DNA of 63,916 bases, taken from assembly GCA_016937175.1 (NCBI GenBank), contig JAFGWL010000025.1, positions 1-63,916 on the forward strand, given 5' to 3'. Each line of letters opens with the position of its first letter. Position 1 is the stretch's first letter. The notes below the pieces were generated by a model. The model did not search any database, was not told the origin of the DNA, and saw nothing but the letters and a program-made list of their open reading frames with translations. Source of the stretch: Candidatus Mcinerneyibacteriota bacterium (GTDB taxonomy: Bacteria; Macinerneyibacteriota; Macinerneyibacteria; Macinerneyibacteriales; DSCS01). Shown one piece after another: positions 7,571 to 61,955 of this stretch. The position numbers were made by a program, and so were the translations under genes.

Positions 7571-8316
7571 TTTTTATCCTCCTTGGTTTGATGGTGTATG
7601 GTGATTTCAAGAGTGCCCTCTTCATATCCTTTCAGCTCTTTTAAAAAACCTTTCACAGTCTCCCGGAAAAGGGACTGAACAAACGGCATCAGGGTGAGCT
7701 CTTTTGCGTTGACGGTGACGGTGACGCTCTTCTCTTTCTCCTGTACCGGACAGACTCGGCCCTTCTTTCCGATCCCCCGACAGTAGAAATCAAGGCAATC
7801 GGATCCGCAGAGTCCGCAATCTAGCCCTGCCGGAAACGGCGGAAGGCTTTCGATAAGGCGGTCGACAGCAGCCAGGGTCTCCTCCCCCAGGCCTTTTAAA
7901 CACTTCTCCCCCTTCTTCGGTTCCCGCTTGTCAGGATTCAGGGAAAAACAGGCCAAAAGGACCCCCTTTTCTTCGTCCGGGTTCTCTTTTTCTCCGCACC
8001 AGATACGGGGAAGCCCGGATTCCTTAAAACCTTCGACGATGAGAAGATCATAACGGCCCAGTGCTTTTCTGATGAGGTCCATCAGCCCTTCTGTCATCGT
8101 GAGGGTATCTGTCAGGCCGTTTCGGAAAAGAATGGCTTCCCGGGCTCCTGCAACAAGAAACCGTTCTCCGTCATCCTTCCCGGTAAGGCCGAGTTCTCCG
8201 TGGATGTTCTTAATGACCGCGCACGATTTTCCTCTTTTTACGGCCCTGGCGACAATGGCCTGAGCCAAAGCCGTCTTTCCGCTCTTTTTATATCCCGCCA
8301 GTTGTAGGACCTTCAT
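7567..8316 (-). CDS. mobB: MobB-like GTP-binding protein with a C-terminal cysteine cluster
   Basis: A 249-residue protein. The N-terminal ~160 residues are a MobB-type P-loop NTPase (GYKKSGKT at residues 8-15, LLIVEGFKES at 91-100), the adaptor that helps MobA attach GMP to molybdopterin. The rest is not standard: cysteines at about 167, 170, 174, 179 and 189 (CGLCGSDC then two more) look like an iron-sulfur or zinc site, and a further ~60-residue domain follows. Similar cysteine-tailed MobB proteins occur in anaerobes and archaea. No other molybdopterin gene is here, but a molybdate/tungstate-type transporter lies at 19.3-21.1 kb. The ATG overlaps nothing upstream; ridA ends 1 nt before. 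Confidence 0.8.
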   Translation of the reverse strand: MKVLQLAGYKKSGKTALAQAIVARAVKRGKSCAVIKNIHGELGLTGKDDGERFLVAGAREAILFRNGLTDTLTMTEGLMDLIRKALGRYDLLIVEGFKESGLPRIWCGEKENPDEEKGVLLACFSLNPDKREPKKGEKCLKGLGEETLAAVDRLIESLPPFPAGLDCGLCGSDCLDFYCRGIGKKGRVCPVQEKEKSVTVTVNAKELTLMPFVQSLFRETVKGFLKELKGYEEGTLEITIHHQTKEDKK

Positions 8317-8317
8317 A

Positions 8318-8698
8318 TCATTCGACTGCAGCGATCATCTCGATCTCGACACGGGCTCCCAAAGGAAGCGCAGCGACCTGAAAAGCGCTTCTGGCCGGAG
8401 GCCCTTCCCGGAAAAAGGAGGCATAGACTTCGTTGACTGCTGCAAAATCTTTTATATCGGTCAGAAAGACAGTAGCTTTGACCACCTTGTCGAGAGACGT
8501 CCCCGCCGCTTCCAGGATGGCCCGTACATTCTCGAGGCACTGCCTGGTCTCTTCTTTGACCCCCCCCTCGACGAATTTTCCTGTTCCGGGGTCCATAGGT
8601 AATTGACCCGATGTAAAGACAAAACCCCCGCTGACCACGGCCTGGCTGTAAGGGCCCACTGCTCCCGGAGCTTTGTCTGTCTTAATGATCTTTTTCAT
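8318..8698 (-). CDS. ridA: RidA, reactive imine/enamine deaminase
   Basis: A 126-residue Rid/YjgF protein of standard length. It hydrolyses reactive enamine/imine intermediates released by PLP enzymes such as threonine dehydratase. Conserved features include GPYSQAVVSGGFVFTSGQ and the active-site arginine in PARSAFQVAALPLGA, followed by EIEMIAA. The genes around encode several PLP enzymes (aminotransferases at 13-17 kb, a tryptophanase-like lyase at 23 kb), which fits a detoxifying role. It overlaps the queH stop by 4 nt. Confidence 0.93.
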   Translation of the reverse strand: MKKIIKTDKAPGAVGPYSQAVVSGGFVFTSGQLPMDPGTGKFVEGGVKEETRQCLENVRAILEAAGTSLDKVVKATVFLTDIKDFAAVNEVYASFFREGPPARSAFQVAALPLGARVEIEMIAAVE

Positions 8699-55626: not shown

Positions 55627-55668
55627 TAAAAAACCCCGGCTCGACTCCGAACCGGGGTTCTTTTTTCA
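55626..55668. terminator. Terminator after the RND efflux operon
   Basis: AACCCCGG (55632-55639) pairs with CCGGGGTT (55652-55659), and the stem extends with TCG/CGA. It has T-rich runs on both sides (TTTTTTATTG on the minus strand), so it ends the PII-like transcript. Confidence 0.9.
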
Positions 55669-55681
55669 GTTATCGCCCTCT

Positions 55682-56002
55682 TTAAAGCGTGATCTTCTTG
55701 TCATGGACTGAAATATCAAGAAGAGGCGTCGTCCAGAAGACGATGGCCTCCACCGGGTTCTCCTCACGGAGTGTGTTCAGCCTCTCCATGATTCGGGCGG
55801 CGCTTTTTTCATCGCACAGAATGATCATCATCATGTTTTTCCCCGGCCACACATGGTTATTGAACCTGGGGTCTGTGGACAAACCCCTCCCGAAAAGCTC
55901 AGGGATGATCGTATAGGCAGTAACGCCCATATGTTTCATCTCGGCGATCATCTCATCGCCGAAGGTGTCAGCAAAGATAATATGCAGGGCTTTCATCTTC
56001 AT
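55682..56002 (-). CDS. PII-like (GlnB superfamily) small protein linked to an RND pump
   Basis: A 106-residue ferredoxin-fold protein. KALHIIFADTFGDEMIAEMK, HMGVTAYTIIPELFGRG and HVWPGKNMMMIILCDEKSAA match a PII-like group encoded next to RND or heavy-metal efflux genes in other bacteria. The VWPGKN loop takes the place of the longer PII T-loop. It is the last gene of the efflux operon and overlaps the pump gene by 4 nt, so it may sense a small ligand and act on the pump. What it binds is unknown. Confidence 0.7.
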   Translation of the reverse strand: MKMKALHIIFADTFGDEMIAEMKHMGVTAYTIIPELFGRGLSTDPRFNNHVWPGKNMMMIILCDEKSAARIMERLNTLREENPVEAIVFWTTPLLDISVHDKKITL

Positions 56003-59000
56003 ATAAACTCACCTCTCCTTCTGGCGGCTTTCCGTTCTGCAATTAGATAGACTGTGGGAACAAAAAGAAGAGTGACAAATGTCGAAAAGAGGAGCCCGGC
56101 GATAACAGTCACTCCCAGAGGAACCCAGGATTCGGCCCCTTCTCCGGTACTCAAAGCCAAAGGCAGCATGCCGAAGATCGTGGTCAAAGCTGTCATAAGG
56201 ACGGGGCGTAGACGTGTCTGTCCGGCTGTCAGAATCGCCTCTTCGATGGGATACTCACGCTTACGGAGAAGATTGGTGTAATCGACGAGGACGATGGCAT
56301 TATTGACCACGATCCCCACCAACAGGATCAATCCCACAAAGACGATGATATTGAGGTTAAGCCCCAAAATCGGCAGTGCCAGAAAGACTCCGCTGAAAGC
56401 GAAGGGAATCGAAAAGAGGATGACAAAGGGGTCTCTGAACGATTCAAACTGACCCGCCATGACCAGGTAGACGAGAAGGATCCCTCCCAGGACTGCAAGG
56501 GCCAGATATTTAAACGAATTCTGCTGGTCTTCGAATGTCCCGCTCATGACAATGTCCACATCGTCGGGATGCTCGATCTTTCGGATGGCGTTATTGACGT
56601 CGGCTGCGACTTCTCCGAAAGACCGGCCGAAGGTGCTGGCCGTTACGTAGATGACCCTTGACTGGGATTTACGCTCGATGTCCACCGGCCCCCGTTCGAT
56701 GCTGAAGTCGGCTATGGTTTCCAGAGGGACGGGAAGGCCTGTCGGAGTGACGATATTCGTCCCCTTGAGGGTCTCGATATCCCGCCGTAGTTCATCTTTT
56801 ATCCTCAAAAAGATGTTATATTCATTCCCCCCCTCGCGGAAAAGGCTGGCCACAATACCATAATACTGGGCCCTGAGCTGCTGGCCCACATCATTGACCG
56901 TAAGCCCCATTCTGTAGAGCTTATCCCTGTTAAGCTGGACTGTGACTTCGGGTTTCCCCATATCACGGGAAATATCTGCATTCCGGACTCCGTCGATCTT
57001 CGAAATGGTGAATTTCACTTCTTCAGCCAGGCTATAGGTCTTGTCCAGGTCATATCCGTAGATCTCAATATTGATGGGAGAGCCTCCCCCGCCGAACATC
57101 TGCATCCCCTGGTCTTCAGACGTGACTATGAGTTTTTCGATGCCATGGACGTGTTCTATCTTCTTCCTTAGGTTTTCCGCGATCTCCACAGAGCTTCTCT
57201 CCCGCTCATTGACTGAGACCAGAGAGAGGCCGATCCGTGCTATGTTGAGCCCCTCCTGAGCTCCGAAGACAGAGGCGAACCCTCCTTCAGAGACCCCTGA
57301 CATGATGAAACGGTCTTTGATCTCAGGGACAGAATCTGTGATGATCTTGTCCACCTCTTTGGCGATCTCCACTGTCTTGTCGTGACTTGTCCCCTGGGGG
57401 AGGATGACAGTGATATCCACCTGTCCCGAATCACTCTCCGGCATAAACTCCGACCCTCCGAAAAGGCCGAAAAAAGCTATTGAGAGAGAAAAGATCATAA
57501 TCCCTGTCAGGACTGTGGCTTTTCTGTGCGAGATGGCCCACTGCAACACAGACCGGTAACTCTTTTCGATTCTTTCAAAGGCCCTTTCCGTAGCGCTTGA
57601 GACTCTCCCCTTCAACTCGATGTTCTTGAGAAAGAGAGACGAAAGCATGGGAATAAGGAGCATAGCCGTAAAAAAGGAGCCGAAAAGGACGATCATAATG
57701 GAAAATCCCAGCTGTTTGAAAAGAATAGCTGAAATATCATTGATGAAAAAGATCGGCACAAAGATGACGATGGTGGTCAAAGTAGACGCCAGGATGGCTG
57801 ACCCCACTTCTGACGCTCCGAACATAGCAGCCTCTCTCTTATTGACCCCTTTCTTCAGATGCCGGTAGATATTTTCCAGTACCACGATTCCGTTGTCCAC
57901 TACCATCCCGATGGCGATAGCCAGAGCTGAAAGAGAGATGATATTGATGGTATATCCATTGATATACATGAGGATGAAGGCAACGATGAGTGAGAAAGGT
58001 ATCATCAGAGATATAATCAGGCTTCCCCGGATATTCCGGAGAAAAAGAAGGACGATCAATACGACAAAGATACCTCCTGCCAGAAGCGTCTTGGCCAGGT
58101 TGGAAATGGAGTCGTTGATGTACTCTGCTCCGTCAAAGACCACATCCAGGGTAAAATCAGCCGGCAGGTTTTTCTTTATCTCTTCAATACGCTCTTTGAC
58201 CTCCCCTGCCACCCGGACCGTGTTGGCACCGGACTGTTTCTGAAGGATACAGAGCATCCCGGGTTTCCCGTTGATCCGGATCTCCCTGTTCTCTTCAAAA
58301 TAACTGTCCACGACTTCTGCTACATCCCGGACCCGGACGAATCGTCCGTTGACATTGGAGAGGACGATGTTCTCGATCTGGGAAGCATCGGTATACTCTC
58401 CCGGGACACGGAGGACGTAATTCCTTCTTTCGTTTTTGATGTTTCCCGCAGGCGTGTCGACATTCTGGGCTGCGATGATCCCGGCTACTGTGTAGACATT
58501 AAGGCCCAGATTGTTGAGCTTGTCCCTGTCGAAATAGACCCGTATTTCACGCTGCGGCCCGCCCCGGACAAAGGCATTCCCCACTCCCGGGACACGCTTC
58601 AATGGTTCCACCAGGTCATTTTCCACAATGGTCCTCATCTGGTTCAGGTTCTGCTCGGCGTTGATAGAAAGATAAAGGATCGGCATCATGGAAATATCAA
58701 ATTTAAAGACGGAAGGGCGTTCCACCCCGTCAGGGAGAGAACTGATGACAAAGTCAAGGGCCCCGCGGATATCACTGAGGGCTGTATCCATGTTGCTCCC
58801 CCATTTGAACTCAAGGGTCACCACCGAAACCCCTTCCTGGGACTGTGATGTGACTCCTTTGATATTCGGGACAGTGGACACAGCTCCTTCGATGATCTCG
58901 GTCACCTTTTTTTCAACATCCTCAGCTCCGGCTCCCTCGTATGTAGTCAGGATACTAGCTACCGGGGGTGTAATATCCGGAAAGAGGTCGATGCTCAACA

Positions 59001-59100: not shown

Positions 59101-59961
59101 CTACCGGATCTGGACTTCCATGCCGTCCTGGATGTACTTCTGGCCCACGACAATGACATCTTCCCCTTCAGTGAGCCCGTCAAGGATCTCTATGAATGTA
59201 TTATATTCCAGTCCTGTATTGACTTCACGCAGATGAGCTTTCCCGTCATTGTACACGAAGACAAACCGGTTATCGATGACCGCCTCCTCAGGGAGAGCCA
59301 ACCCGTGGCGCTCGCTCAAGATGATACTGATACGGGCAAACATCCCGGACCTGAGTCTGAGGCCCGGGTTGGGGACGTGGACTTTCAAGTCGATGGTATG
59401 TGTCAACGGATCAGAGACAGGCGTAAAGGAGACGATCTTTCCTTTGAAGACCTCTCCGGGGTAGGCCTCTGTTGTCACCTCAACGGGGTTGTTTCCCCTG
59501 AGATGAGGATAGTAACGCTCAGGTACCGAAATAGTCGCCTCCATGGTGGTCATGTTGGAGACACTGGCCACGGGTATCTGCCCCGGGATGATCATCTCCC
59601 CTTTGTCCCGGTTAAGGTTTCCCACGATGCCGCTTATGGGGCTCTTGATCAAAGCCGGCTCATATTTCAAGCCGGTCACATCCCGGTCGATCCGTGCGAT
59701 GACCTGGTCTTTTTCCACATACTGCCCTTCTCGTACATCATAGGAGAGGAATTTCCCGTTGATCTTGGAGTAGACAGAGATATCCTGAATCCCCAAGAGC
59801 GTGCCGGTGGCTTTGTAGACTTCCCGCACCACACGTTTTTCCAGTTTTTGAATACTCACAAAAGGAGCGGCCTGCTGTTGAGCTGCTCCTCCCTTTTTAC
59901 ACCCGCCTGCACTCAGGGCTAAGACGACGAAAAGGATAATAACCACTGCATCACGTTTCAT
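59101..59961 (-). CDS. RND periplasmic adaptor lipoprotein, without alpha-hairpin
   Basis: A 286-residue membrane fusion protein. The signal ends in lipobox LSAGGC (lipidated Cys21). Two lipoyl half-motifs (VREGQYVEKDQVIARIDRD and ALIKSPISGIVGNL) are joined by a linker of only about 12 residues (93-104), where AcrA has a 60-100-residue coiled-coil hairpin. Beta-barrel and membrane-proximal domains follow. The ATG at 59961 after GAGGAGG overlaps the tolC stop. Borrelia BesA has the same hairpin-less design. Confidence 0.9.
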   Translation of the reverse strand: MKRDAVVIILFVVLALSAGGCKKGGAAQQQAAPFVSIQKLEKRVVREVYKATGTLLGIQDISVYSKINGKFLSYDVREGQYVEKDQVIARIDRDVTGLKYEPALIKSPISGIVGNLNRDKGEMIIPGQIPVASVSNMTTMEATISVPERYYPHLRGNNPVEVTTEAYPGEVFKGKIVSFTPVSDPLTHTIDLKVHVPNPGLRLRSGMFARISIILSERHGLALPEEAVIDNRFVFVYNDGKAHLREVNTGLEYNTFIEILDGLTEGEDVIVVGQKYIQDGMEVQIR

Positions 59962-61271
59962 AACGCCTCCTCTTTCTCCAGTATTCCTGCAGCTTTTCTT
60001 AATTTCAGCCAAGAAAGGTTCAAGTCATAACGGGCGCGTATATCCCCTGCTTTGGCATTATTGTAGCCGATCCGGGCCTGCATAAGCTCCAGCAGAGAGA
60101 CGACGCCCTCTTTGTATCCGGCCCGGGCGACTTCAAGGCTTTCCCTGGCCAGAGAAAGGTTCGTCTTCTGGGCATCCAGGCGTTCACGGGCTTCCCGGAC
60201 ACTCTCCAGCTTCAGGCTGAGATCGATTCCTGTCTTTTCTATGATATCCCGGTAAGTGTCGTCCAGGATCTCCTGCTGTAAAGAGAGGTTTTTGATTCCG
60301 ACAGGACGTTTGAGTCCTTGGAACAGGTTCCATTGGAGAGCCAGGGTGATATTATAGGAATCTTCCCACTCCTGCCCCCACTCTTCTTTCTGTTGTCCGT
60401 AAGTCCCTGAAAGGACCAGGGAGGGCAGATACTGCCCCTTGGACATGCTTTTGGAGTAATCGACGATGGCACTGTTCATTTTCAGGATCTGTATATCCGG
60501 GTTGTTGCTTAAGGCCAGATCCATCAGGAGGCTTTTTTCGGGAAGAAGCCTTTCTTCGTCAACGGCAAAATCACGGGAGACAGTCAGCTCCATCTCTTCG
60601 GCGGCTCCCACGATATTTTTCAGGCTCATGAGAGCCGTTTTATACCCCGATTCCGCTTTGAGGGCGTCAGGACGGGCATTATTGAGCTCCACTCTGGCCT
60701 GGAGCAGTTCCAGATTGGAAGCTTCTCCGTTATTGTACTGGGCTTCGACCATCGCCTTCTGTTCTTCAAGGATCTCGACGGTCTCCCGGGCCAGGTCCTT
60801 CATCAATCCTGCGTATATGACATTGTAATAGGCTTCTGAGACAGCGTAGATGACATCCATCCGTGCTTTTCGATACTCCTGCTTAGCGATATCCCGCCGG
60901 GCATAAGCTGTCTTCAGACTGAAGAAGCGTGCCCCTCCCGTAAACAGGGGGAGGTTCGCCGAAAGAGAGTACTGATAATTACTGAGCATATCCATCTCAT
61001 AATCCATGGCCGTCCCCCCGGGCCCGGGAAGGGAAAAGGTGGAGACAGATTCTTTCAGGACCTTAAGCCCTGATGCGCTCACTGTAGGGAGAAAATCCCC
61101 GTAAGCAGTCAGGATCTCATTTTTCGCCTGGGCGATCTCCCTTTCTTTGTTCACTAATTGGGTATTGTTCTCCAGGGCAAAAGAAATCGTCTGGTCTAAA
61201 GTCCACTCTTCTCCCGAAGCGGGGAGAAAGAGGACAGCTGTGAGAATAAAAAGATTGATCAGGTGCTTCAT
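59958..61271 (-). CDS. TolC-family outer membrane efflux protein
   Basis: A 437-residue OEP protein with a signal peptide (LINLFILTAVLFLPASG) and the internal repeat of TolC (two halves of long helices and short strands: ALENNTQLVNKEREIAQAKN, SEAYYNVIYAGLMKDLA, ARVELNNARPDALKAESGYK, QARIGYNNAKAGDIRARYDL). It forms the outer-membrane duct for the RND pump. It overlaps the tetR stop by 4 nt. The size is like that of TolC. Confidence 0.92.
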   Translation of the reverse strand: MKHLINLFILTAVLFLPASGEEWTLDQTISFALENNTQLVNKEREIAQAKNEILTAYGDFLPTVSASGLKVLKESVSTFSLPGPGGTAMDYEMDMLSNYQYSLSANLPLFTGGARFFSLKTAYARRDIAKQEYRKARMDVIYAVSEAYYNVIYAGLMKDLARETVEILEEQKAMVEAQYNNGEASNLELLQARVELNNARPDALKAESGYKTALMSLKNIVGAAEEMELTVSRDFAVDEERLLPEKSLLMDLALSNNPDIQILKMNSAIVDYSKSMSKGQYLPSLVLSGTYGQQKEEWGQEWEDSYNITLALQWNLFQGLKRPVGIKNLSLQQEILDDTYRDIIEKTGIDLSLKLESVREARERLDAQKTNLSLARESLEVARAGYKEGVVSLLELMQARIGYNNAKAGDIRARYDLNLSWLKLRKAAGILEKEEAL

Positions 61272-61888
61272 TTTTCCTCCTCTGTGTTTTCTCCCAGAGC
61301 ACTTTTCAAAAAGATCTTCATAATCTGATAGGCTTTCTCATCTTCCATAGAGTTCTCTTCCATCATCTTGTAATGTTCCATTCCGTGCAAAACCCCCATC
61401 ACCAGATAAGACACTAAAGTGGCCTTTTTTACGTCACTGATATACTCTTTTAAGACACCTGAGAGAAATTTTATGCGTTTTTCATAGATCCCCATGATTT
61501 TCTCAAAGATCTCCCCGTTATTCTGATAGATCAACCCGATATTTTTGTGAAAGAGCGTGGCTACCTTTTTATTGCGGTAGGTCTTGCGAAAGCTTTCGTC
61601 AAACAAGACATCGAAAAGGGATTCCGACTCACCCGGCTCGATTTTTTTCAGCTGTTCAGTAATAAAACTTTCGATCTCCTGAAACTCCTCATCCGCCAGT
61701 TCCACAAGATAGGAGATAATGTCATCCCTGGATTTGAAGTAGGAATAGAGGCTTGATTTGCTGTAGCCCACTTGAGAAGCGATTTCAGCCAGTGTGACAT
61801 TCTCCACCCCTTTTTCCAGGAAAAGATCCGCCGCCGCATCGGCGATGAGATCTTTTTTCATCTTGAATTCCCACTCTCTTTTTTTCAA
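61268..61888 (-). CDS. TetR/AcrR-family regulator of the RND operon
   Basis: A 206-residue repressor with a standard helix-turn-helix (EKGVENVTLAEIASQVGYSK, then SSLYSYFKSRDDIISYLVEL) and a ligand domain. The start is uncertain: TTG at 61888 has AGGGGG six bases before it, ATG at 61861 does not. It is the first gene of tetR-tolC-adaptor-pump-PII, and a palindrome over its promoter suggests that it represses the whole operon, including itself. Confidence 0.88.
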   Translation of the reverse strand: MKKREWEFKMKKDLIADAAADLFLEKGVENVTLAEIASQVGYSKSSLYSYFKSRDDIISYLVELADEEFQEIESFITEQLKKIEPGESESLFDVLFDESFRKTYRNKKVATLFHKNIGLIYQNNGEIFEKIMGIYEKRIKFLSGVLKEYISDVKKATLVSYLVMGVLHGMEHYKMMEENSMEDEKAYQIMKIFLKSALGENTEEEK

Positions 61889-61917: not shown

Positions 61918-61939
61918 TGCGGTCGATATAATAACCGCA
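61918..61939. promoter_or_regulatory. Candidate TetR operator over the -10 box
   Basis: A 22-bp inverted repeat: TGCGGT (61918-61923) and ACCGCA (61934-61939) with 10 bp between, exactly enclosing the -10 box of the tetR promoter. Size and place suit an autorepressing TetR dimer. Confidence 0.65.
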
Positions 61940-61955
61940 CATTCAATAGTGTCAA
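61928..61955 (-). promoter_or_regulatory. Promoter of the RND efflux operon
   Basis: Perfect TTGACA (61955-61950), 16-bp spacer, TATTAT (61933-61928). Confidence 0.75.

Follow-up and report, generated by a model that had tools for sequence, protein, structure and literature searches.

A PG0541-family PII-like protein encoded with an RND efflux pump as a candidate pump subunit

What might a small PII-like protein do at the end of an operon that encodes a tripartite efflux pump? The question was raised by a stretch of 63,916 nucleotides from a Candidatus Mcinerneyibacteriota bacterium (here termed the window), in which a first-pass annotation had noted a GlnB-fold protein beside an RND pump and proposed that it could be a ligand-sensing subunit of that pump. 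The PII-fold gene was confirmed as an open reading frame of 106 amino acids with an ATG start, and is the last gene of an operon with the order TetR-TolC-MFP-RND-PII (Table 1). The successive junctions measure -4, -4, +9, and -4 nt, with ATGA overlaps between tetR and the TolC gene, between the TolC and MFP genes, and between the RND and PII genes. The RND frame ends with TTT ATA TGA, and the ATGA common to its stop codon and the PII start codon forms the 4-nt overlap that had been described. A ribosome site judged good, AGGAGAGG, is present just upstream of the PII ATG.

Table 1. Features of the efflux operon in the window, and fused homologs found elsewhere
Feature	Position	Strand	Basis
PG0541-family PII-like protein, 106 aa	55682..56002	-	NF045581 76.5 bits (cut-off 45); Pfam P-II 29.4 bits (cut-off 25); AlphaFold2 model
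HVWPGKN, C-terminal half of T-loop, family signature	55835..55855	-	45-member comparison
RND permease, ACR_tran, 1030 aa	55999..59091	-	PF00873 856 bits; trees place the pump in a predominantly PII-linked clade
Codon of pump R945, cytoplasmic TM10-TM11 loop, candidate PII contact	56257..56259	-	Coordinates by arithmetic from ORF start
Periplasmic adaptor (MFP), lipoprotein-type start	59101..59961 (listed ORF begins 60012)	-	TIGR01730 175 bits (cut-off 94.9)
TolC/OEP outer-membrane channel	59958..61271	-	PF02321 204 bits
TetR-type regulator	61268..61888	-	PF00440 51.7 bits
Promoter-like TTGACA-16-TATTAT, strong, sigma-70-like, upstream of tetR	61928..61955	-	Best of region, 11/12; consensus match only
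Terminator-like GC hairpin and T run, just 3' of PII gene	55633..55660	-	Consensus match only
RND-PII fusions	L215-L221, e.g., L216 1530-4955	+ (L216)	Family matches inside long frames, read through

The window protein exceeded the cut-offs of both the Pfam P-II superfamily and NF045581, the "PG0541 family transporter-associated protein" (Table 1), and missed that of DUF3240 (PF11582; 17.3 versus 21 bits). The transporter operon that NF045581 implies was also found, with the RND gene directly 5' of the PII gene and overlapping it. The family name and its transporter link are already recorded in NCBIfam, and the window protein is a member of this known family; in Parabacteroides distasonis, its named PG0541 example, the order TetR-TolC-MFP-RND-PG0541 equals that of the window. 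PG0541 is only listed in two papers (PMC1887533, PMC4493947), and the open-access literature searched yielded neither a functional study nor a functional description of PG0541-family proteins. As far as that literature goes, the natural fusions, the breadth of the pump linkage, and the residue correlation reported below are new. A first scan of genome contigs for the family yielded three loci only, and the gene occurred in all 3 genomes sampled from the source phylum, Candidatus Mcinerneyibacterium among them. No canonical GlnB or GlnK was found in the source genome (98.7% complete), where the sole other P-II match, on C58, stayed below the cut-off at 14.4 bits. A search of viral contigs found no relative.

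An AlphaFold2 model of the window protein, computed from four orthologue sequences, exhibited the beta-alpha-beta-beta-alpha-beta order of the PII fold (pLDDT 77.3, pTM 0.70; 1 of 5 models exceeded pLDDT 70), and a second family member was modelled with an identical order of strands and helices (pLDDT 71.7). The closest structures were CPII (Z 11.5), TTHA0516 (11.4), SbtB (11.3), and GlnK1 (10.8), with a Foldseek probability of 1.00. TTHA0516 (PDB 2cz4) was also the only PDB sequence match (E 0.0014), and its W-x-G-x-N segment was aligned with that of the window protein. A fold unlike PII, which the first-pass annotation had named as grounds for abandoning its proposal, was therefore not what the model revealed. 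The HVWPGKN loop that it had singled out was recovered as part of NHVWPGKN at residues 49 to 56. Among 45 family members, P53 was invariant, G54 was present in 40, and W52 in 34; G38 was also strongly kept, and position 46 was basic in 43. In contrast, the B-loop nucleotide motif of canonical PII proteins, GDG[KR]I, was found in 0/45 members. The canonical C-loop R-x-R, sought with a loose pattern (RTGE or R.R.G) and irrespective of position, matched 1/45, and the C-terminal CGPxGC redox loop of some SbtB homologues was absent from the sequence of the window protein.

Does the pairing with a pump extend beyond this locus? In a domain-wide sample of 386 genomes, 42 contained a family member above the cut-off, and 41 of these loci could be evaluated. 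An RND gene was located directly 5' on the same strand in 38 of them; two loci had no pump (L016 and L049), and at L060 the pump lay 3'. Even supposing that 2% of all genes are RND genes, the binomial probability of this outcome is ∼3e-61, and chance is excluded, since the same gene order recurs in 38/41 evaluable loci across the bacterial domain. Two further phyla contributed 42 loci, of which 40 were linked; the other two were one contig end and one orphan. A conserved link, whose absence from other genomes would have told against the proposed pump subunit, was thus observed twice. The exact 4-nt stop-start overlap was shared by the window and 17 other loci, and the pairing was kept in dozens of bacterial families. 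Viewed from the pump side, a PII gene accompanied 16 of the 18 pumps nearest to the window pump; of the other two loci, one was truncated by the end of its contig and the other lacked the gene. Next to 40 more distant pumps, chosen as having no known PII match, a missed PII gene was found in 0/35 evaluable cases. In the pump tree, one clade of 26 comprised 24 linked and 2 unlinked pumps, and linkage occurred outside this clade, too. An ordinary nitrogen-signalling PII (GlnB/GlnK) that adjoins a pump by happenstance would explain the Pfam P-II match, but neither the missing B-loop nor an RND neighbor conserved in dozens of families, and we give this reading practically no credence.

Members that do not adjoin a pump were seen at L016, L049, and L213. 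At L016, the gene (8265-8576) is flanked by two frames, one of 496 aa and one of 362 aa that resembles a radical SAM protein. The weakest family matches adjoin, as judged by eye, an SbtA-like transporter (L085, 7220-8498) and a DabA-like protein (L087, 5115-8732), neighbors which hint at a possible kinship of the family with SbtB and CPII. In spirochaete-like genomes of ∼1 Mb (L222, 4636-8229, and L223), TolC-MFP-RND or MFP-RND genes are followed by a PG0541-family gene, an order that matches the Borrelia bes genes (besA, besB, besC; PMC2279261). Two candidates from the phylum of G302, L227 (4616-5297) and L228, were rejected as family members; both are tandem PII-like proteins that belong to a different type.

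The same phylum, that of G302, includes seven genomes in which pump and PII protein share a single frame of 1140 to 1159 aa; these frames consist of a full RND permease, a linker, and a C-terminal PII domain matched at E values of 3e-14 to 5e-17. The four fused pumps sampled formed one clade with full support, so that the fusion looks like a single event, since retained by seven genomes from at least two families; it counts as one evolutionary event, and to that extent against the weight of the explanation that we prefer. The C termini of RND permeases are cytoplasmic, as established for AcrB, and the fused PII domain is therefore held at the cytoplasmic face. Together with the linkage, the fusions support the idea that the PII protein is a pump subunit.

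Both the linkage and the fusions would, however, look identical if the protein were an assembly or stability subunit, constitutively bound to the pump and not responsive to any ligand, for which the small protein AcrZ on AcrB provides a precedent (PMC10710835). The lack of the GDG[KR]I motif in 45/45 members also fits such a role; yet AcrZ is a single membrane helix, as opposed to the soluble ligand-sensing fold encountered here, and we regard this alternative as unlikely, though by no means negligible. The tetR gene within the operon might instead suggest that the PII protein regulates expression by acting on the TetR repressor or on another cytoplasmic target rather than on the pump. But the RND neighbor is nearly constant, several linked loci have no TetR match (e.g., L055, L058, and L063), and the partner to which the PII domain became fused is the pump and not TetR, all of which makes an expression regulator very improbable.

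A first comparison of 19 linked with 9 unlinked pumps had its sharpest column at R945 of the window pump, in the cytoplasmic TM10-TM11 loop. Among 83 pumps (40 of them added), a set that excludes the group of linked pumps that diverge most (L017, L018, and L081-L083), Arg occupied this column in 32/34 linked versus 12/49 unlinked pumps (Fisher 7e-11), which ranked it first of all pump columns for PII linkage (runner-up, 1.6e-7); three pumps of the excluded group have no Arg there. Phylogenetically independent pairs (n=8) gave an average of 5.3 with and 0.0 against the association, at a median p of 0.06 that is not significant alone. Linked or fused pumps read later had Arg in 51/51 cases, all of them related pumps from few phyla. 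The relationship between R945 and linkage is a correlation, and its column was picked post hoc. A C-terminal tail motif common to linked pumps was also sought; none was seen, and the tails vary.

The first-pass annotation had set the pump apart from heavy-metal pumps and assigned it to the HAE1 (drug/lipid) type, which was partly right but loose as a label: the pump missed the cut-off of TIGR00914 (HME; 506.6 versus 701.45 bits) and likewise that of TIGR00915 (HAE1; 492.5 versus 940.35 bits). The best RND model was RND_permease_2, though still below its cut-off. The proton relay residues of AcrB, D407, D408, and K940, are incomplete in the window pump (D, N, and N), and with two of them replaced, proton coupling may differ from that of AcrB. 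A reading of the D-N-N relay as a PII-specific trait was rejected, because the variant also occurs in many unlinked pumps.

As had been noted in the first-pass annotation, PII-like proteins encoded with heavy-metal RND pumps are known, and PII-NG (GSU2134) adjoins CzcABC in Geobacter (PMC7726332). By that example, the window protein might be a metal sensor, adjusting export or expression upon binding a metal ion, a role to which its distant, below-cut-off resemblance to DUF3240 (with structure 3ce8 at Z 10.2) and the T-loop HPG in place of WPG in some linked members also point. Such an HPG was observed in L018, L081, L083, L013, and L078, whose neighboring pumps fall outside the main clade. 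No set of Cys or His residues is conserved, however; H50 is variable, W52 is replaced by His in only 5/45 members, and the window pump lies below the HME cut-off, and we consider a metal sensor quite unlikely.

We think it probable, then, that this cytoplasmic PII-fold protein binds the RND pump with which it is co-translated, probably as trimer on trimer, and modulates transport via a small intracellular ligand. In GlnK-AmtB and SbtB-SbtA, a PII trimer caps a trimeric transporter from the cytoplasmic side with its T-loop inserted (PMC8352866, PMC10710835, PMC10117731), and it is by analogy with these complexes that a dedicated cytoplasmic pump modulator is proposed; for the separate protein, docking, trimer symmetry, and stoichiometry, as well as the ligand, control by it, and the direction of that control, are inferred. 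Made together with the pump, the PII protein would dock on the cytoplasmic face, where the T-loop with its WPGxN segment would act as the contact element and the TM10-TM11 loop of the pump, including R945, would form part of the dock; upon binding of the small intracellular ligand, it would then modulate transport. Since adenine nucleotides are ligands of SbtB and CPII, an adenine nucleotide would be the first candidate here. A bolder generalization is put forward tentatively, as somewhat more apt to be wrong than right: throughout a non-metal RND clade of dozens of bacterial families, spirochaete-like genomes included, a dedicated PII protein that reads a nucleotide signal and docks on the cytoplasmic TM10-TM11 region would act as the switch of the pump.

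Discussions of how RND efflux pumps are controlled usually center on transcription. If the proposal is true, tripartite efflux would be gated by a metabolite at the protein level, and a pump-dedicated PII protein would couple the efflux of drugs or lipids to cellular metabolism. Few protein-level RND modulators are known, namely AcrZ, WatS1, and YajC (PMC10710835). Given the natural fusions and the R945 column, the idea of a pump modulator can be tested directly.

Among known systems, PII-NG proteins such as GSU2134 resemble the window protein in having the PII fold and in sharing a locus with the genes of a tripartite RND pump (PMC7726332). GSU2134, however, stands first, ahead of a metal pump, whereas the window gene comes at the end of its operon, after a pump that does not reach the HME cut-off, and the linkage to HME RND genes by which PII-NG is delimited was not found at this locus. 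SbtB and CPII provide the nearest folds (Z 11.3 to 11.5), at only ∼12 to 20% identity to the window protein. SbtB is likewise encoded with a trimeric transporter, SbtA, which it caps via its T-loop (PMC8352866), but SbtA is a bicarbonate importer, in contrast to the efflux pump of the RND operon, and the CGPxGC R-loop of some SbtB homologues has no counterpart here. TTHA0516, whose W-x-G-x-N loop aligns with that of the window protein, is itself without assigned function. GlnK shares the fold and, with AmtB, the principle by which a PII trimer controls a membrane protein that is itself trimeric; yet GlnK serves nitrogen signalling and possesses the B-loop, which the family of the window protein lacks.
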